Numbered from the stretch's first letter, positions 7,380 through 50,866 are shown. The stretch: DNA of 64,000 nucleotides from Parvibaculum sp. (GCF_030694575.1 NZ_JAUYUS010000052.1:1-64000), one strand, 5' to 3'. Numbers and translations are program-made. Notes: a model not told the origin generated them from the letters alone.

Positions 7380-10220
7380 TCAGAGACGGACAGCGTGAAC
7401 AGCCTCGGCATTCGCCGCCAGCCAGCCGCGCACCGCACGAGAGGCCGCGTCATGAGCCGAGAACAACGTGTCCATAAGGCGGTGCGCGGCGTCCAGGTCG
7501 CCAGCCCGGCATGCTTTTTCAAGCAACCGCGCGGCCGCGCTTTCCCGCCTGGCACCGATTTCGCCCGCCGTTCCGACAATGACATGAGCAGCGGCCATCA
7601 TCCCCTCAAGATCGGCACGGCCGTTCGCCTCCCGGATCGTTGCAATCCGTTCTTCCGTGTCGCTCAGATAGAGATCGAGCAACTCTCGCAAATCCGACAT
7701 CGAGAGCACAGACAAAAGGTTCTCCAGTGACGCCACATCGAGGTCGGCGAGTCCTTCCTCGATTGCCAAGGTGGCAGGATCGCCGGATAGCTCTTCATTC
7801 GCGACTGCGTCGGACGCAGGCGGCTGCGCGGGCAACGCGGCGGACACTTTGGCAAGCTTGGCGAAAAGAATGTCCCGGCGCACCGGCTTGGATATGTAGT
7901 CGTCCATGCCGCAATCCAGATATTTCCGCTCGGCGCCTTCCATCGCATTGGCCGTCATCGCGATGATGGGGATGTCGCATTTCGGCGCCGGCAAGGCTCG
8001 AATGCCCCGCGTGGCGCCAACGCCATCGAGCTCCGGCATCTGAATGTCCATGAGCACCACGTCGAAATGCCCACGGCGAACGGCATCGACGGCCTGCAAT
8101 CCGTTCTCCGCAATGGTCACGCTATGCCCCAGCTGTTCGAGCATCGCCAGAGCGACCTTCTGGTTGATCTTGTTGTCCTCCGCCAGCAGAATCCGCAAGG
8201 TACGGGCGGACGTCGCCGCGCCGTCCTCAAGCACGTCTCGATTATGCGCTGAACTCGAATCGACGAGCGGCGCTCCGCTATAGACGCGCATCAGACAATC
8301 CAGCAGCTCATGCTGCCTCAACGGCTTTTCAACGCGGGCATCCAGCGTGTCGTTTTCCTCGTGAAGCTTGCTCGCATGAGAGCCTGCCGATGAGACGAGT
8401 ACCAGCTTCATATCGGCGAGATCGGGATTGTTGCGAATGCGCGAGGCAAGGTCTTCGCCCGAGATGCCGGGCATCATCTGATCGAGGAAGGCAATGTCAT
8501 ATGGATGACCGGCATGCCATGCCCTTTCCAGCTCGGCCTGCGCGGCAAAACCATCTTCGGCTCTGGTGACGGTAATGCCATAGGTGCCCAGTTGAGAGGT
8601 CAGGACGTCGAGGTTCACTGGAACGTCATCGACGACCAGCACTTTGAGCTTCTCGAGATAGACAGGCAGGCGGCTGAGATCGGGCAGGTGGGCGGCCGAG
8701 CGTACAAGCGATAACTGGAACCAGAACGTCGAACCCGCCCCGACCCGGCTGTTGACGCCGATATTGCCATCCATCAATTCGACGATCTGCTTGCAGATCG
8801 CAAGACCCAGGCCGGTGCCGCCATAGCGCCGTGTAACGGAGCTGTCAGCCTGGCTGAATTTCTGAAACAACCTGCCGCAGACGTCCTCGGGAATGCCAAT
8901 GCCCGTGTCATGCACTTCAAAACGCAGATGAGACGCCTTTGTCTGGGGATCCTCGACGCGGTAAACCGACACCCGCACGGCGACGCCGCCCTTCTCGGTG
9001 AACTTGATGGCGTTGCCGATGAGATTCAACAGGACCTGGCGCAGACGCGCGGGATCGCCGCGGTAAATGCCCCGCGCGGCCGGCTCGATATAGGCGCCGA
9101 GATCGATCTGTTTTTCCGCCGCCCGCGCCGCCATCAGGCTGATCGCGCTTTCGACCGTGTTGACCAGATCGAAGTCGATATGATCGAGCTCGAGACGACC
9201 GGCCTCCAGCTTGGACACATCGAGAATATCGTTGACGATGGTCAGCAAGGCTTCCCCGGACTCTCGAACGGTCTCGGCGAATTTTCGCTGCTCGGCGTTC
9301 AACGCCGTGGTGAGCAGCAATTCCGTCATGCCCAGTACGCCGTTCATGGGCGTACGAATCTCATGGCTCATATTGGCGAGAAAGTCGGACTTGGCGCGAT
9401 TTCCCGCTTCAGCCTGATCCTTGGCGGCGATCAATTCCTGCTTTGTCGCTTCGAGTTCGGCGATATAGACGCGCATGCGTTCCGCTTCACCAGACGCGCG
9501 TTGAGCCAGATAATTGTCCACCAAGGCGCCGACCAGGCCGAGCGCAATGATCAGGAATGTAACGGTCGCGATCGCGATGGCGATCATGCCGGGTTCCGCG
9601 ACAACATCCGTTACGACGATGGTCGGGTCCGGCACATAGGTGAGCGCCGTCATTGCCGTGAAGTGTGTGGCGCAAATCGCGATGGTGAAGAGAAGCGATC
9701 CCACCAAGATGCCACCAAGTGCAGGAACGCGCATGGCGGCATGCATGGCGCCCGCGCTCGTCAGTACGCCGATGACGACGGCCGCGACGACATAGTTCAT
9801 ATCCCAGACGGGATCGGCCGGAATCCGGACGGCGGTCATGCCCGTGAAATGCATGGCGCTGATGGCCGCACCGATCAGGGCACCCCCGGCCAAGGGGCCG
9901 GGCCTCCCGAGAACAATCGCAAACCCCACCCCGCACAACACGATGGCGATCAAGGCGGAGAAGAAGGTCAAGCCAATCTCGTAGTTCACGGGCAGGATGG
10001 ACTTGAACGCAAGCATCGCGACGAAATGCGTCGCCCAGATGCCGCTTCCTGCTACGCCCCCTGCCGCCATCAGCCAGAGCGTCCGCACTCGGCCCTGCGC
10101 GAGTTTGGCCCTGCCCAGCATGTTCATGGCGGTGAAGCAGGCGAACAGGCACAAGCCGCCCGCCAAAACGACGAGCCCTAGATCGTGTTCCTGAGTGATG
10201 CAGCCAATGACCCTCAACAT
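7380..10220 (-). CDS. MHYT-domain hybrid histidine kinase
   Basis: A 946-residue membrane sensor kinase. Residues 1-240 are multi-pass membrane sequence with the MHYT repeats THFVAM (64-69), MHFTGM (123-128) and THFTAM (185-190), proposed to bind metal and sense diatomic gases. A coiled coil (about 245-280) leads to the dimerisation/phosphoacceptor box [12 protein letters not shown] (H286) and an ATPase domain with [17 protein letters not shown] and GGTGLGLAI. Two receivers follow, AFLDQMMPG and [12 protein letters not shown], then a C-terminal Hpt-like domain. In the Hpt the motif is [14 protein letters not shown]: the histidine is present but the usual lysine of HxxKG is valine. No cognate regulator gene is adjacent. 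Confidence 0.9.
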
Positions 10221-41948: not shown

Positions 41949-43934
41949 CTATGAAACCCCCGGCCCTCTCCGCCTCCCGATCGTCCACGAGACCCTCCCT
42001 TCCCGGACGACCCCTGCGACCTGCCTCCCGAGATGCCGCTCCAGCACCGGCCGCCAGGGTACGAGCGTGAACTCGCGCGATCTTTCGATCACCGCGAAAC
42101 GCCCGCTGGCGAGATCGACATGCCGGCGATAGGTGCCAGTCGCCTTTTGCCCCAATTCTGCCTCGGCATAGGGTAGACCGAGCTCGCCCGAGAGCTGTTC
42201 CGCTACACGCAGCAGCTCGCGCCGGCGCAGGATGCCGAGCATGTTGGCGCGATAGACGATCCGGTCCTGTTCCTCGCGTGCCAGTTCCTGCCCGGCCAGC
42301 CATCGCCGACGCATCGCGAGCGCGTCGCGCACCTCCCCGCCGAAGCCCGCCTCGCGCAAGGGCTCCGGCTTTTCCGCCACAAGCTCACGGTCAAGCCAGG
42401 TCGCGCCATTGGCGGTCACCTGCCGCTCGAGCGGCCAGGCGGAAAGCGTCTCGACAATGACCGGGCTCGATCTTGCCTGACCGCGCTCGAAGGATGCGGC
42501 GCGTTCCAAGTGATCCGGCGCGATGACCCAGCTTCCGTCCGGCTCTCGCTCGACCAGCCCGGCAATCCTCCGCATCGCTTCCAGCCGCCGGATATGGGTT
42601 TCGGCGAAGGCGCGTGACGCGGTTGGGTCGTGGCGGAGATGCGCCTCGATGTCGTAGCGCCCGTTATTCGCCGCCGCGACCTCCGCAATCGTTCGGTCGA
42701 CGGTTCTCTGTCCCACCGGCTTCGGCCTGATCGCGACGATGGCGCCGTCCGGCAGCGCGTCCACCGTCTCCGCCCCACCGATATCGACGTAATGCACACG
42801 ACCGTCGATCCCGTCGACGATCAAATAGTGACGGTCGTTGAGTTCATTCGACAGCCCTCTGGTGACAAGACGCCCGACGACGCGTCGCTCCTGCCCGTTC
42901 GCGGTTTCATGAACCGCATAGTCGGAGGGGACCCGCGCGAGCCCCTTCTCCGTCATTTCGCGGTGAAGCGTCTTGATGATGTCGCCGCGCTCCCCCATGC
43001 GGCGGAGCGCCGGTTCCAGGTCCCCGGCAAGCTTCCACGTTCCGGTGGCGATCTCCTCCGCCAGTCCCAACCGTTTCAGTTTCTGCAATCGCCCGGCCCG
43101 CAGGCTTTGCCGGAAGGCGTCGCCGACGGTCGCCCCAGACCGAACACAGCCTTCGCCGTCCGCGTCCTTCAACAGGCCGCGGTCGAGACCCGTGAACCGT
43201 TCCTGTTCGACCTCCCGCGCGAGGTTCGCCTCGATCTCGAGATCGCTGCGGGGACCGAGATCGAGGGTGACGATTTCGGCGGCGCGCTCGCGCATGCCCG
43301 TCGAAAGATAATCCCGCGCGATGACCAGGTCCTGTCCGCGCTCGTCCTTGCCCCGGAGCATGATGTGGGTATGGGGATGGCCGGTGTTGTAATGATCGAC
43401 CGCGACCCAATCGAGACGCGTTCCCAGATCCTCCTCCATGCGGGCCATGAAGCGCCGCGTGAAACCCTTCAGTTCCTCATATTGCGCGGCGTCCTCGGCC
43501 GAAACGATAAAGCGGAACTGGTGCCGGTCGCCGTCGCAGCGTTTCAGAAACGCCTTGCCGTCCGCCCGGTCGTGTTCGGCATCGTAAAGCTCGCCCGGCT
43601 GCCCTTCGCGCGTCACGCCGTCGCGCTGGATATAGCGGAGATGGAGACGGGCCGCCTTCAGGCCCTGCCCCTTCAGCTTCACGATGCGGGATTTGACGAC
43701 CACGCGCCGCGCGCGGAAGGCGGCATGGGTTCCGCGCGACGCGAGCACGCGACCGATGCCGGCGCCGCGGCCGATGCGATTGCCGTGAAAGCCCGAGCCC
43801 GGCGACGCTCCACCGAAGCGGCGTCCGCCCGCCAGCGCCGCCGATTTCAGCACGCGTTGCTGGTAGCGCCGCTCGGCCTTTCCGGCGCGCGCCCCGATCC
43901 TGCCGAGACGTGGCTCGAAGCCGTCGTCCTGCAT
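41949..43934 (-). CDS. Relaxase/mobilisation protein with DUF3363
   Basis: A 661-residue relaxase like RlxS of ICEMlSym. After a basic N-terminus, the HUH motif appears as DHYNTGHPHTHIML (histidine metal triad), with RYIQRDGV further upstream. The DUF3363 domain forms the C-terminal half. It nicks oriT and pilots the strand through the channel. The ATG at 43934 has GAGAGGAG ahead; a longer frame from 44072 is rejected. The intact C-terminus ends in GRRRGPGVS. Confidence 0.9.
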   Translation of the reverse strand: MQDDGFEPRLGRIGARAGKAERRYQQRVLKSAALAGGRRFGGASPGSGFHGNRIGRGAGIGRVLASRGTHAAFRARRVVVKSRIVKLKGQGLKAARLHLRYIQRDGVTREGQPGELYDAEHDRADGKAFLKRCDGDRHQFRFIVSAEDAAQYEELKGFTRRFMARMEEDLGTRLDWVAVDHYNTGHPHTHIMLRGKDERGQDLVIARDYLSTGMRERAAEIVTLDLGPRSDLEIEANLAREVEQERFTGLDRGLLKDADGEGCVRSGATVGDAFRQSLRAGRLQKLKRLGLAEEIATGTWKLAGDLEPALRRMGERGDIIKTLHREMTEKGLARVPSDYAVHETANGQERRVVGRLVTRGLSNELNDRHYLIVDGIDGRVHYVDIGGAETVDALPDGAIVAIRPKPVGQRTVDRTIAEVAAANNGRYDIEAHLRHDPTASRAFAETHIRRLEAMRRIAGLVEREPDGSWVIAPDHLERAASFERGQARSSPVIVETLSAWPLERQVTANGATWLDRELVAEKPEPLREAGFGGEVRDALAMRRRWLAGQELAREEQDRIVYRANMLGILRRRELLRVAEQLSGELGLPYAEAELGQKATGTYRRHVDLASGRFAVIERSREFTLVPWRPVLERHLGRQVAGVVREGRVSWTIGRRRGPGVS

Positions 43935-43993
43935 CGTCTCCTCTCCGCGATTGTGACCCATCTTCAAGATGATCGGCTTTCGCCGCGTAACAA

Positions 43994-44114
43994 GACGGCG
44001 CCATGAAGACCGAAGAGGCACAGGGACTTGGCGCGGCCATGGCGCCACGCCTTCGGCGCATGGCGCCGTCAAAAGAGATGTGCAGACAGGAACATAAGCC
44101 GCTCATGGCGCCGT
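43994..44114. repeat. Repeats upstream of the relaxase gene, candidate oriT
   Basis: GACGGCGCCATG (43994-44005) is the exact inverse of CATGGCGCCGTC (44059-44070). A further CATGGCGCCGT lies at 44104-44114 and a core CCATGGCGCCA at 44037-44047. The array occupies the 256-base gap between the relaxase and lytic transglycosylase genes, which is the usual place for an origin of transfer. Confidence 0.55.
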
Positions 44115-44190
44115 TCTTTTATCTTGCCCTCCCGCGATCCAGAACCGGCCTCACGCTCACCGGCGCTTAAGTACTTTCTCCTGGGACTGA

Positions 44191-45913: not shown

Positions 45914-46237
45914 TCAGTCGACGGGATTCCAGATCAGCGCGAAGGTCTCATCGTCGTCCTGACCGGCGGCGCGGCCGAGATTGGCGTAGAGCCGGCGCGG
46001 CCCGAATTCCGGGGCGGCGAGGCTGAGGCTCACATAGTCCCGGCCCGAAGTTTCGCCGGTACGCGTCCAGCCCGCGCCGATCTCGACGCCCTGTGTGAGG
46101 ACCCGGAAGTCCGGCTGTGCCTCGGCGCTTTTCGCCGCATTGGGCACGATATCGATCTCGACGCGGATGGTCAGCGTCTTCAACTGGCCCTTGTAGCCGC
46201 CGCTCGACTGCTTGGTGACATATCCGATCGCAGGCAT
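45914..46237 (-). CDS. DUF736 family protein (second copy)
   Basis: A 107-residue DUF736 protein (MPAIGYVTKQSSGGYKGQL; VEIGAGWTRTGETSGRDYVS). It shares the family with the gene at 21153 but is clearly diverged. The start has AAGGAGA. A structured non-coding region and a hairpin (CGAGGGG/CCCCTCG, 46261-46280) lie directly upstream of the start. Confidence 0.85.
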   Translation of the reverse strand: MPAIGYVTKQSSGGYKGQLKTLTIRVEIDIVPNAAKSAEAQPDFRVLTQGVEIGAGWTRTGETSGRDYVSLSLAAPEFGPRRLYANLGRAAGQDDDETFALIWNPVD

Positions 46238-46260
46238 GGTCTTTCTCCTTCGATGAACGC

Positions 46261-46280
46261 CGAGGGGTCCATTCCCCTCG
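46261..46280. promoter_or_regulatory. Leader hairpin before DUF736 gene
   Basis: CGAGGGG (46261-46267), loop TCCATT, CCCCTCG (46274-46280). It sits 24-43 bases ahead of the start codon at 46237 on the minus strand and could form in the 5' leader. Confidence 0.5.
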
Positions 46281-46294
46281 CGATGGCGAACCCC

Positions 46295-46451
46295 GATGGG
46301 CGCGGCAGCCGCCCGCCGAACCGGAGGCCGGAGCGCAAGCGAAGGACCCGAGCGGCGGGCTTTATTGAAGCGAAGCGACCGCGAGGAGCGCGCGACAGCG
46401 CGCGGGGAAAAAAGCCCGGCGCGACGGTTTCGGGCGGGCGGCAGCGCCCAT
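46295..46451. ncRNA. Structured non-coding element A
   Basis: Terminal helix formed by ATGGGCGC (46296-46303) with GCGCCCAT (46444-46451), extended by GCCGCCCG (46308-46315) with CGGGCGGC (46435-46442), separated by a small internal loop. Inner GC hairpins include CGCGC/GCGCG around GACA. It resembles element B at 50285-50422, including a shared run near GGAGGCCGGAGCG.. and GGACCCG. It lies between the ParB-like gene and the DUF736 start on the minus strand. Either strand could be the functional one. Confidence 0.5.
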
Positions 46452-46877
46452 AGGTCTCGCGGCTCAAGCGAGGAAATGGCCCCTTGACGCCTTACCGAAG
46501 GGGGAAAGAGCCCATGCAATCCATGCGCACCAAGCCTCTTGAGGCGGACGGGCCGTATGATGAAGGCCGGAGCGATAGATCGATTCAACACCGAGGCAAC
46601 ACGCCGACGGCACCGGAAAACGCTCACGCGGGGTGTGCGTATGACGCGGTAGATGCGTGGCGAAGGACGGGCAAACAGAGAGCCCCGACTCGCCACCGGA
46701 ATGCGGCCAAGCGCGCCCGCATCGTGTTCCCGCGTGCCGCTTGACGACACCGTAGCTGTCTCTGAAATCATGTCCACGATCGTGCCCCGTCGCGATACCG
46801 GAGCGCGGCAGGCGATGCACAACAAGCTGTTCGCTCATGAAAAAGAGCGGGCGGCGAAGAAGCCGCCCGCACAAGTC
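46452..46877. other. Intergenic region after element A
   Basis: No gene recognised. Open frames here, including one of 136 codons on the minus strand (46464-46874), lack a family and a convincing start. The region is the spacer between the ParB-like and DUF736 genes. Confidence 0.4.
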
Positions 46878-48608
46878 TCAGGTCTTCCCGAAATATCCCG
46901 CGACGCGATCCCACGCCTCGGCGGGCGGGAAAGCTCCGTCCTCGCGATAGGACCGGGCCGGGACATGCATCCAGCGCGGCAGCCATGTGCCGACCTTCGC
47001 GCGGCCATTCGCGCCCGCGAGACAATCGCGAATGATCTGCTTCTGCACCGACGCCTTCTCGGCGACATTCTGGTCGGCGACGCTTTTTCCGGCGATGTCG
47101 GCCAGCATGGCATTGATCGTGCCCCGGTCGCGCAGCAGCTCGAAGAAGGTCTCGTCCGGCTCCCAGACCGGGCCCATGTCGCGCTTCAGCACCACCGCCA
47201 GCGCCTCGACCGCCGCGCTCCCGACCTGCAATGTCTCGCCCATCACGGTGACAAGCACATTCATGATTTCCTCGTCGTTGAGCATCAGAAGCCTGGCGAA
47301 GAGGGCGACGGTTGCTGCGTCGTCGCCGTGCGGCGCGGTGAGGTTTTCGCGCTCTTCCGGCAGACCGAGCAAGGCCCGGATATTGGCCTGCCAGCCCCGG
47401 AAGGCACATTCGGCGACATTGGCCGCGAGGCTTTTCGCGATGGCGTCGGACGCCGCTTTCTGCGGCTCAGGCGTCACCTGCCAGAGCGCCGATCCGGCGA
47501 TGGCATGGGCGAGCATCAGCCGTAGCGCGATGCCGGGATGGTCCAGCAGTTCGGCACGGACGGCGGCATGGCGATGCAGTTCGATATAGTTGCGCATCGA
47601 TTTGGTCACCTCGGGCCGGGCGGCGCGAACCTCCGCCGCATCATCGCTCGCGCCCTCCTGTCTCGCCTTGCGGCGCGCCTCCGCGCGGGAGAGATAGCCC
47701 TCGTGGAAACCGACCTCGCCGCGGCCTGAGACCTCGACATAGACCTTGCCGCCCTTTTTCTTCGACACCTTCTCGTAGTCCCATGCGGGGAAGCGGACGC
47801 CGGGCTCCATGACGATGACCTCACTCCAGCCCGCCTCGCGCAGCGCGTCTGCCTTGGCCGCAATGGCCTCGCCCTGCTTGCGCCAGAAGAGGTCGGGATC
47901 GGCGAAATACCCTTCCTCGCCGAAAAGATCGGCGACGACCTCGCCTTCGTAAGTATCGAGCGGGAAGAGCGCCGCGCCGGTCGCAATCGACTGGCCGCCG
48001 AAGAGCCATTGCTTCAACCGATGGCCCGTCGGGCAGGCGCTCCGGTCGGTCTTCCAGAGTTTCCACCATTCCTTCTGCTTCGCCTGCGAGGCAAGCGTCA
48101 GATGGCGGATCGATGCGGCATCGATCTTCTCCGCCCGATAGGCTTCGCGGATCGGTGCGATCAGCGTGCCGAGCGCGAGACGGCGCTTCACCATCAACTC
48201 GGTAAGGCCGAAGGTCGCGGCGATGTCGGCGACGGATTTTCCCTCGCGGGTGAGCCGCGCGAAACACTCATACTGGCTCATCTCGTCGGGATCGAGACGG
48301 GCGATGTTCTCGATCAGCGAGGCTTCGAGCGCGGCCGCATCGTCGCCGGGCTCCATCACGGCGCAGGGCAAGGGTTCGACCTCACCCTGCTCTTCCTTCA
48401 CCGCCTTGGCCGAGAAATAACGCCGCCGTCCGGCGACGATTTCATAGGCATTCGCTTCCGTCTCGACGGGGCGTACGAGCAACGGCTGCAGGATGCCGCG
48501 CGCCCGGATCGAGGGCAGGATGTCGTCGATATCGGGCGGGCGTTTGCCATGCCGCATATTGATCGCGGCGGGGCGCAGTTCATCGATCGGGATGTGACGC
48601 AGTTCCAT
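46878..48608 (-). CDS. ParB/RepB/Spo0J-family partition-like protein
   Basis: A 576-residue protein. The N-terminus shows ParB motifs: IPIDELRPAAINMRHG, IRARGILQPLLVRP, and YEIVAGRRRYFSA with the GxRR box; then LIENIARLDPDEMSQYECFARL and an HTH (VADIAATFGLTELMVKRRL). The C-terminal 350 residues are the poorly characterised extension common to ICE-type ParB-like proteins. No ParA partner is adjacent. AAAGGAG precedes the ATG at 48608. Confidence 0.88.
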   Translation of the reverse strand: MELRHIPIDELRPAAINMRHGKRPPDIDDILPSIRARGILQPLLVRPVETEANAYEIVAGRRRYFSAKAVKEEQGEVEPLPCAVMEPGDDAAALEASLIENIARLDPDEMSQYECFARLTREGKSVADIAATFGLTELMVKRRLALGTLIAPIREAYRAEKIDAASIRHLTLASQAKQKEWWKLWKTDRSACPTGHRLKQWLFGGQSIATGAALFPLDTYEGEVVADLFGEEGYFADPDLFWRKQGEAIAAKADALREAGWSEVIVMEPGVRFPAWDYEKVSKKKGGKVYVEVSGRGEVGFHEGYLSRAEARRKARQEGASDDAAEVRAARPEVTKSMRNYIELHRHAAVRAELLDHPGIALRLMLAHAIAGSALWQVTPEPQKAASDAIAKSLAANVAECAFRGWQANIRALLGLPEERENLTAPHGDDAATVALFARLLMLNDEEIMNVLVTVMGETLQVGSAAVEALAVVLKRDMGPVWEPDETFFELLRDRGTINAMLADIAGKSVADQNVAEKASVQKQIIRDCLAGANGRAKVGTWLPRWMHVPARSYREDGAFPPAEAWDRVAGYFGKT

Positions 48609-49098
48609 GGGTCTCTCCTTTCGGGTGCTCTTGGGTGGGGCTCGGGCTCTCCGCCGTTTCATGGGGCAGAGAGAAGTTCGACCAGTCGGCGAGCGCGTAA
48701 GTGCCGCCGTCCGCATCGATATGAAGGCCGGGCGTGCCGGGCGCGGCGCCTTCGGTGTCGTAGTCATGGACATGGACGATTGCGCGTCCGCCCTCGATCT
48801 CGACCTGCTGCACGGTGCCGCCGGAAACCGTAACGGTCACGGCGACCGGCTCGCCGCGCTCCGAAAAGCGCGGCGGCACGGGAAGCGAGGAGGCAAACTC
48901 CCGCCACGGATCAGCGTCGTCGCCTTCGGCAACCGCATCAATGAAGGTCGGGCCGCAATCATCAAGCGGTTTCCAGCCGTCGCTCTCATTGGCCGCGACG
49001 ATGGCCTTCTCCAGCGCCGCGTCGAACGTCTCGGCCTCGACCGTCACGGTGTTGGCGTAATAGGCGGCAAAGCCGCATTGCACGGTCCATTTCTTCAT
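48580..49098 (-). CDS. Hypothetical protein of the ICE core
   Basis: A 172-residue protein with an N-terminal block MKKWTVQCGFAAYYANTVTV and a C-terminal acidic, glycine-rich region (VHVHDYDTEGAAPG). It overlaps the ParB-like gene by 29 bases. I do not recognise a family beyond its typical presence next to ParB in related elements. Confidence 0.65.
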   Translation of the reverse strand: MKKWTVQCGFAAYYANTVTVEAETFDAALEKAIVAANESDGWKPLDDCGPTFIDAVAEGDDADPWREFASSLPVPPRFSERGEPVAVTVTVSGGTVQQVEIEGGRAIVHVHDYDTEGAAPGTPGLHIDADGGTYALADWSNFSLPHETAESPSPTQEHPKGETHGTASHPDR

Positions 49099-49110
49099 GG
49101 GGCGTCTCCT

Positions 49111-49308
49111 TCAGAACAGGCTCAGCTGGTTGCGCGCGTCCTCGTCGAAGAGGCCGATGTTCAGGGGCTTCTGGGCCTTGCGCGGGCGCAGCGGCGCGGC
49201 CATGAAGGCGGCCAGCCGGTCGCACTCCCGGATCGGTGCGACACCCGGCATGAGGCACTGCTCGCCTTCGGGCGTCGTTTCCACATCGAGAGGCGGGTGC
49301 CCGCTCAT
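49111..49308 (-). CDS. Small hypothetical protein next to ardC
   Basis: A 65-residue protein starting at the ATG at 49308 that overlaps the ArdC stop by 4 bases. No domain recognised; its N-terminus MSGHPPLDVETTPEGEQ and C-terminus FDEDARNQLSLF are not diagnostic. Translational coupling to ardC supports it as a real gene. Confidence 0.6.
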   Translation of the reverse strand: MSGHPPLDVETTPEGEQCLMPGVAPIRECDRLAAFMAAPLRPRKAQKPLNIGLFDEDARNQLSLF

Positions 49309-50240
49309 GCCGCCCTCCCCTCGCCCGGCTCTATGCCCTCCGCGCGGAACGCCAGCAGGAAATCTGCTGCCTTGGAGGCGAGGCTCGCGGCGCGGAAGAT
49401 GGCGCGGTCGTCGTCGCGCAAGAGGTCGAGCCATGAGGCGATGTAATCAGCATGTCGCACGGTCGGCACGATGCCGAGCGCGGCGCAGACAAAGGCGCTT
49501 GCCATTTCGGCGACGAGTTCCTCCGCCGCATAGGCGCGCGAGCCGAAGCGCCCGGAAAGATCGCGCGCCAGCCGCGAGGGGTGACCTGTCCAGTGGCCGA
49601 GTTCGTGGAAACAGGTGCGGTAATAATTGACCGGCTCGTGAAAGGCCGCTTGCGGCGGCACCTCGATGCAGTCGAGGCTCGGCATATAAAAGGCCATCGC
49701 GCCGCCGACATGAAATGCCGCCCCGGTCGCCGTGATCAGCGCCTCGGCGGCGGGCACGGTCTCGCTCTCCGGCAGTATGGCGGGCGGTGCAAGCAGGTCG
49801 TCCGGCAGGCCGTCGCATTGCGCGACATTGAAGACGGTGAAGCGCTTGAGGAAGGGGATGCTCCGGGCCTCGTCGCCGTCCGCCGCCGCGCGTTCGCGCT
49901 CCGCCTTCGGCGTGAAGCGGTCGGCATAAACGAGGGTCACGCCCTTCTCGCCCTTGCGGACATGCCCGCCGAGCGAGAGTGCCTGCCGGAAGGTAAGCCA
50001 GTTCTGGACGGTAAAGCCTCGCTCGATGACGGCGCTCCAGAGGATCAGGATATTGATCCCCGAATAGGCGTTCGCCGTCGCCGCATTGCGCGGCAAACCG
50101 AGCCCGGCCTTGGCCCCGTCCCAGGGTTGCACCCAAGGCACCCGGCCCGCTTCCAGTTCCGCGACGATCTTTGCCGTCACATCGGCATAAAGCTGCGGCC
50201 CCGCCTGCCTCCCGGCCTGACGATTATGTTCTCCGCGCAT
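49305..50240 (-). CDS. ardC: ArdC-like antirestriction protein
   Basis: A 311-residue protein with the ArdC/DUF1738 single-strand-DNA-binding N-terminus (QLYADVTAKIVAELEAG; VPWVQPWDG) and a zincin-like C-terminal part with FHELGHWTGH. Such proteins protect incoming DNA from host restriction or nucleases, useful to a transferring element. A structured element (B) lies 45 bases upstream of its start codon. Confidence 0.88.
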   Translation of the reverse strand: MRGEHNRQAGRQAGPQLYADVTAKIVAELEAGRVPWVQPWDGAKAGLGLPRNAATANAYSGINILILWSAVIERGFTVQNWLTFRQALSLGGHVRKGEKGVTLVYADRFTPKAERERAAADGDEARSIPFLKRFTVFNVAQCDGLPDDLLAPPAILPESETVPAAEALITATGAAFHVGGAMAFYMPSLDCIEVPPQAAFHEPVNYYRTCFHELGHWTGHPSRLARDLSGRFGSRAYAAEELVAEMASAFVCAALGIVPTVRHADYIASWLDLLRDDDRAIFRAASLASKAADFLLAFRAEGIEPGEGRAA

Positions 50241-50284
50241 CGGCCAGCTCCCGTCAAATCCCGCCGCGTCTCTCCCGGAAGCGG

Positions 50285-50422
50285 GATGGGCGGCGAAAAG
50301 CGACCGGAAGGCCCGCCGTCAGAGGCGGGACGCACCGAAGGCCGGAACGGAGTGGAGGACCCGGAGCGCAAGCGGAGGGTTGCGGCCTGCCGCGGCGGGC
50401 CTAGAAGGGAGCGCCGCCCATC
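50285..50422. ncRNA. Structured non-coding element B
   Basis: Terminal helix GATGGGCGGCG (50285-50295) with CGCCGCCCATC (50412-50422), 11 perfect pairs; second stem AGGCCCGCCG (50309-50318) with CGGCGGGCCT (50393-50402), 10 perfect pairs. The inner part carries AGGCCGGAACGGAG and GGACCCGGAGCGCAAGCGG, similar to element A. It is upstream of ardC on the minus strand, between ardC and an XRE gene, and contains no plausible gene. Confidence 0.55.
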
Positions 50423-50476
50423 ACGCGTGACGGGGAGACGCTTCAAAGAAAGACGCCGCGCGAGAGCGCGGCGACC

Positions 50477-50719
50477 TTAGCCCTTGGGCTTGTAAAGTTC
50501 CTTGAGAACGTCACCGGGATCATCACCAAGCGCCTGCACGACGTCGACGAATTCGATGATATCGAGACGGCGTTCGCCGCCTTCATATTTGGCGACAAAG
50601 GACTGGGTGCGCTTGAGCCGCGCGGCGACATCCGCCTGCGTCAGGCCCTTCGCCTTGCGAAGCTTGATCAGCAGCGCCAGCAGCTTTCGTTGACGCGGCG
50701 TGCGAAGGGTCTTGGACAT
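50477..50719 (-). CDS. XRE-family HTH regulator
   Basis: An 80-residue Cro/CI-like protein; the helix-turn-helix is KGLTQADVAARLKRTQSFVA. It lies just upstream of element B and ardC on the same strand. A repressor of the ParB/ArdC gene run is a reasonable guess; no operator is identified. Confidence 0.8.
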   Translation of the reverse strand: MSKTLRTPRQRKLLALLIKLRKAKGLTQADVAARLKRTQSFVAKYEGGERRLDIIEFVDVVQALGDDPGDVLKELYKPKG

Positions 50720-50866
50720 TCGGCCGGACCGGCTGGAAGCGAAACGGTCCGATCAAATAATCCCAGTTTCGGATTATCCCATTTTAGGATATTTTGATGC
50801 GGTGCGAACTTGACTGATGGGACGAGATCGCCCTTCGCCACATCCGAAAAACAAGGTGATCGAGTC

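Follow-up and report, generated by a model that had tools for sequence, protein, structure and literature searches.

Two structured non-coding elements, A and B, in the window (the whole 64-kb stretch of DNA that was analysed) are members of one structural family with strong covariation. On balance, we favour the view that both are single-stranded DNA structures of the transferred strand (T-strand) that would give early expression of the genes downstream of them during conjugation, and that they are probably switches by which protective genes are turned on while DNA is being transferred. Early expression from an incoming single strand has so far been described mainly for the F and ColIb plasmids. 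If true, the proposal would indicate how ICESyms, as well as Ti-type and enterobacterial plasmids, could express defence-blocking proteins first, would supply a signature by which the leading region, and early genes whose function is unknown, could be recognised from sequence, and would allow a clean test of RNA polymerase's ability to work from single-stranded DNA that lacks canonical promoter boxes.

Location and architecture of the elements

The full model match of element A spans 46289..46456 (118.7 bits with the A-built model R3, E 1.8e-19, E-values from the covariance models built here being rough) and that of element B spans 50281..50428 (135.2 bits with the B-built model R2). The proposed folded strand is the + strand in both cases, and the genes that follow lie on the - strand. 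Sequence inspection found both elements where a preliminary description had placed them, with the arms it had named. They had been put 45-60 bases before minus-strand start codons, and the measured distances are 58 nt for A (DUF736 gene) and 44 nt for B (ardC).

By hand inspection, A and B have a common architecture, consisting of an outer helix P1, a stacked helix P2 and then a four-way junction of P2, P3, P4 and P5, which is perfect in both, with zero unpaired bases in the derived structure. In A, the arms of P1 (ATGGGCGC/GCGCCCAT, 46444-46451 with 46296-46303; from sequence and per-helix pair counts) are accompanied by a second pair of arms (GCCGCCCG/CGGGCGGC). The junction of A (46320..46429, closing pair 46320:46429; from sequence and covariation) contains P5 at 46321-46327 (CC-GGA-GG), P4 at 46328-46345 (loop GCAA) and the P3 arm at 46346-46428; P3 of A has a long extra arm, made up of an A/T-rich helix plus a hairpin. 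In B, P1 is formed by GATGGGCGGCG/CGCCGCCCATC (50412-50422 with 50285-50295) and P2 by AGGCCCGCCG/CGGCGGGCCT (50393-50402 with 50309-50318), and the junction occupies 50334..50381 (closing pair 50334:50381), all three from sequence and covariation. Its P5 lies at 50335-50341 (CC-GAA-GG), P4 at 50342-50358 (loop GGA, internal loop GGA x GGA) and P3 at 50359-50380 (loop GCAA). An automatic B structure from RNAalifold (model R1) had only 32 pairs, and the hand-derived structure was used instead.

A and B lie within the transfer region of an ICEMlSymR7A-type alphaproteobacterial ICE. Its genes, all on the minus strand, include an RlxS-like DUF3363 relaxase (41949..44072; Pfam PF11843, E 5e-157), a lytic transglycosylase-like gene, a TraF-like peptidase, an HTH_17 gene in the rdfS position, the DUF736 protein gene downstream of A (45917..46237; Pfam PF05284, E 9e-30), a ParB-like gene between A and B (46881..48605; Pfam ParB_N, E 9e-16) and ardC downstream of B (49308..50240; Pfam ArdcN, E 2e-42, and the zincin domain MPTase-PolyVal, E 4e-53).

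Covariation and family membership

Homologues were taken from 80 ardC-relative loci plus DNA matches in related genomes, and 89 upstream stretches were gathered for ardC and 68 for DUF736. Both elements recur in these stretches and are conserved clearly above the flanking DNA. Many of the homologues are close (Mesorhizobium) relatives, and the following counts overstate independent events: for B (28 sequences), 94% of cells were paired and 8 pairs had changes in both partners (2.1 in shuffles); for A (25 sequences), 88.9% of cells were paired and 21 pairs had changes in both partners (11.9 in shuffles). Compensatory changes thus preserve pairing in both alignments. The covariation score was 0.061 for B (shuffled 0.032) and 0.146 for A (shuffled 0.059), and in neither case did any of 500 shuffles reach it; we regard this covariation among homologues as the decisive test of the structure. 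Shifting the partner by 1-3 columns brought pairing below 50%, a control that is partly circular since the hand-derived structure was taken from the same sequences and is favoured to some degree. Cross-detection of the two elements is less circular: the A-built model detects B elements at approximate E-values down to 2.5e-5, which bears out the earlier suggestion that A and B are related, and the B-built model detects A weakly.

No Rfam 15 family reached its gathering score in the window, nothing in Rfam overlapped A or B even at E up to 10, and 19 relatives gave no match either with E allowed up to 1, which rules out a known RNA family. The literature searched contained no description of the element family. 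As regards a conserved reading frame as the source of the similarity, most plasmid matches have no annotated gene underneath, and pairing persists through compensatory changes. A dispersed (REP-like) repeat or mobile element was likewise ruled out by single copies in the own genome, with one B-like DNA match, one R2 match and one R3 match.

Predicted oriT, transferred strand and orientation

An oriT is predicted at 44031..44126 on the + strand, where an inverted repeat is followed by TATCTTG (44120-44126). The predicted nick after 44126 would make the + strand the T-strand and the leading direction rightward, toward A and B, which would lie on the leading side at 2.2 kb and 6.2 kb from oriT, respectively; the same arrangement is predicted in relatives. 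The oriT of ICEMlSymR7A is located between msi107 and rlxS (PMC11963761). The matching stretch is a conserved block in 20 nonredundant loci, in which the + strand has an inverted repeat and then TTTATCTTGCC. This motif was found once per locus in 58/58 loci, and wherever both were located it was opposite to the element strand, that is, antisense to the downstream genes. The RP4-type nick region is TATCCTG/C and has the same order of inverted repeat and then motif. A search for the RP4-type YATCCTGY near the relaxase gave no match at oriT, the conserved motif there being TATCTTG, and a nick motif upstream of the relaxase was not found in loci L145, L147, L153 and L158. Two Agrobacterium plasmids that carry Ti-type transfer genes have, between traC and traA, an RSF1010-like TAATTGCG/CCCT on the strand opposite the elements. 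From two unrelated types of oriT nick motif, the folded strand is therefore predicted to be transferred as the T-strand and to serve as template for the downstream gene; its identity as the T-strand is inferred from these predicted nick-site motifs.

The elements are oriented toward the relaxase or oriT in 31 of the 32 cases with either in view, comprising 15/15 in nine chromosomal loci, 14/15 on seven plasmid regions and both window elements. Three observations are exceptions and count against our preferred explanation. One copy on pNK6c faces away from the relaxase, and one element on pAt1D1609b is about 87 kb from oriT. In genome G185 (L114/L134, G185:C112), two divergent elements about 0.8 kb apart each precede their own DUF736 gene, so that at least one copy there breaks the orientation rule, no relaxase being in view.

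Separately, RlxS/DUF3363 relaxases from across the Alphaproteobacteria repeatedly have the conserved oriT-like block (inverted repeat, GATGTGCAGACA, TTTATCTTGCC) upstream of them, and the block at 44031-44126 of the window could help to predict oriT and the direction of transfer.

Strand preference of the fold

Loops were collected by base pairs and junction context only, with the loop letters left free. Among 40 nonredundant elements with parsable P4/P5, the P4 apical loop on the strand opposite the gene was GNA in 22 and GNNA in 16 (38/40 together), and the 3x3 internal loop was GNA x GNA without exception (40/40). On the gene-sense strand these loops become TNC and TNNC, and the P3 hairpin loops follow the trend of the P4 loops. 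In DNA, GNA and GNNA loops closed by C-G (cGNNAg) are exceptionally stable hairpins. The 4-nt P4 loops mostly have C at the third position, so the majority are not GNRA and an RNA loop does not explain the pattern.

Folding energies point the same way. The strand opposite the gene gave the better fold in 53/53 sequences with DNA and RNA parameters, with a mean margin greater than in shuffles, and the gene-sense strand also folded better than shuffles in this comparison. As single-stranded DNA against shuffles, B gave z = -4.2 on the + strand and -2.3 on the - strand, and A gave -3.2 and -2.1. With RNA folding in gene sense, one cut of B scored z = -2.9, and two shorter cuts of A came out near 0 or higher. 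Taken together, the strand evidence speaks for a single-stranded DNA structure of the transferred (+) strand rather than for an mRNA leader. The preliminary description had left RNA or DNA open while naming the elements structured non-coding ones and suggesting RNA-seq; its RNA reading is not favoured, and the loops and folding of the + strand point to the DNA option.

Terminator and promoter search

An intrinsic terminator lies directly upstream of B in gene sense (50444..50473, - strand; stem at 50454-50473, then TCTTTCTTTG). Such a terminator was present, ending 18-25 nt before the modelled B, in 16/20 B loci, compared with 4/400 random windows. Outside the B subfamily it was found before the element in 0/27, which counts against the preferred explanation. 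A sigma-70-like promoter was not found in 46100-50800, + strand included. Nor was a canonical promoter found within the fold, where the best matches to -35/-10 boxes (6.11/12) were no better than in shuffles (6.49), and this result too weighs against the preferred explanation.

Distribution and downstream genes

In a class-wide covariance search of 289 genomes, R2 had matches in 6 and R3 in 20; phylum-wide, R3 matched 26/299 genomes, 3 of them outside the class. Relatives were found in alphaproteobacterial ICEs and plasmids, Ti-type included, and in enterobacterial and Pseudomonas plasmids. The element of a Citrobacter plasmid has DNA matches on 121 plasmid records, including 30 from Pseudomonas, 23 from Citrobacter and 17 from Klebsiella. 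On these clinical enterobacterial and Pseudomonas plasmids the element often occurs twice per record, and in the record inspected (L147, Citrobacter p56322CZ_VIM4, 9787-9947) it precedes DUF736.

The first downstream genes encode DUF736, ArdC, DUF2493/YAcAr (DUF2493-like), ArdA and ParB, with a median element-to-start-codon spacing of 52 nt; the downstream ORFs of L122, L125, L131 and L135 look wrong-frame and were excluded from the gene identities. The element had been presented as a repeated cis-acting element of the ICE, placed upstream of DUF736 and ardC and not yet described. What holds is that there is one family, repeated per element, tied to certain gene starts and absent from Rfam, while its range is much wider than the ICE and it has more downstream genes than those two.

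DUF736 is the commonest gene partner of the element. Its AlphaFold model is all-beta (pLDDT 83), and a search for structural relatives, a known nucleic-acid-binding fold among them, gave no confident match (best Foldseek E 0.17; best VIA-align Z 5.8, avidin). The literature search found none on DUF736 with ardC or with the leading region. At L113 (G311:C4), the element stands before an 81-aa protein without a Pfam match, a candidate early gene. In Sphingobium plasmids (L139/L142, 9008-9155), a B-type element is positioned downstream of an ArdC-like gene, ahead of hypothetical genes, which on pTK1 are followed by an 'antirestriction protein'; the element is therefore not tied to ardC alone.

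Proposed function and alternative explanations

As the T-strand enters the recipient, each element would adopt its fold of stacked helices with a four-way junction at their end, and the folded element would start transcription of the gene just downstream, with the same T-strand as template. ArdC and DUF736, or in relatives ArdA or DUF2493 proteins, would be made before a second strand exists, and expression would stop once the DNA is double-stranded. We infer that the element itself would be the start of transcription, and that RNA polymerase would be recruited directly rather than via primase or another protein. The ArdC of R388 is required in the recipient only, and that study assumed its production to wait for conversion to double-stranded DNA (PMC7213743). 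In leading regions, anti-defence genes have the T-strand orientation (PMC11541004). The combination of leading region, orientation, early genes, repeated copies and folded T-strand matches the pattern of single-strand promoters. More tentatively, and at somewhat less than even confidence, the elements may constitute a new class of single-strand promoter, recognised not through -35/-10 boxes but through the shape of the folded DNA, with its four-way junction and GNA/GNNA loops, and serving, in Alphaproteobacteria as well as on Enterobacteriaceae and Pseudomonas plasmids, for the early expression of anti-restriction genes during conjugation.

The main rival is second-strand priming, in which A and B would be T-strand initiation sites of the ssi/sso type that load primase, RNA polymerase or a primosome for second-strand synthesis, their position before early genes being secondary. 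Such sites share the strand and leading-region evidence and would suit several copies per mobile element and the absence of promoter boxes, but a tight start-codon spacing (median 52 nt) shared by several unrelated gene families, like the terminator before B, is what one would expect of expression control rather than of priming, and we consider this reading unlikely. Less probable again is that A and B act as cis-regulatory RNA leaders within the mRNAs of ardC and DUF736, folding in gene sense. They do sit 5' of the genes, their helices are possible on either strand and the sense fold beats shuffles; however, the conserved structure favours the opposite strand, where alone the loops make sense, the sense strand is the worse fold in every one of the 53 sequences, no promoter was found and a terminator stands directly upstream of B. 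In addition, sense-strand G-U mismatches were not enriched over A-C (55 vs 95 in B, 23 vs 30 in A).

Two further readings appear very improbable. An antisense non-coding RNA made from the + strand across the element would agree with the better folding of that strand with RNA parameters too, but its GNNA tetraloops with mostly C in third place and its many GNA triloops are unlike the GNRA loops of RNA, and no promoter-like site was found on the + strand. Equally doubtful is an action of the inverted repeats in the duplex state, whether bound by a protein as an operator or extruded as a cruciform. Long GC-rich inverted repeats fit this idea, yet compensatory changes keep the pairing while the sequence drifts, whereas an operator would conserve sequence and not pairing, and the loop chemistry is strand-specific.

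Comparison with known systems

Several known systems come close to A and B as read here. The ssi/sso sites resemble them in being folded DNA that acts strand-specifically after conjugative or rolling-circle transfer, but to our knowledge those described keep no set distance to a following gene. For integron attC sites (PMC2727003), function likewise depends on one folded DNA strand; attC is a recombination substrate in cassette arrays, and A and B have no such context. STAXI (PMC2864571) is also a conserved structure near antirestriction and DNA-binding genes, for which its authors considered single-stranded DNA. It differs in being a repeated pseudoknot with UUCG loops that was argued to be RNA, whereas in A and B the structure is a four-way junction, its loops are GNA/GNNA and lie on the opposite strand, and Rfam gives no match.

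Also close are the single-strand promoters Frpo1/Frpo2 of F and the related ones of ColIb-P9 (Masai and Arai 1997; PMC9849209; PMC11541004), which like A and B are non-coding stable folds of the T-strand in the leading region, in two copies a few kb apart, with early genes downstream that have the T-strand as template. In F, the Frpo copies are about 5 kb apart in the leading region and drive leading genes only while single-stranded (PMC9849209). A and B differ from Frpo in lacking canonical -35/-10 boxes, in having a four-way junction where Frpo has a plain stem-loop, in being GC-rich and mainly from Alphaproteobacteria, and in their gene set of DUF736, ardC, DUF2493 and ardA. A fold that rebuilds canonical -35 and -10 boxes, one defining feature of Frpo, was not found in A and B, and they are therefore described, by comparison of features, as working like Frpo rather than filed as Frpo; the features held in common are the leading region, a T-strand that by nick-motif prediction is the template of the downstream gene, and a predicted stable fold of that strand.
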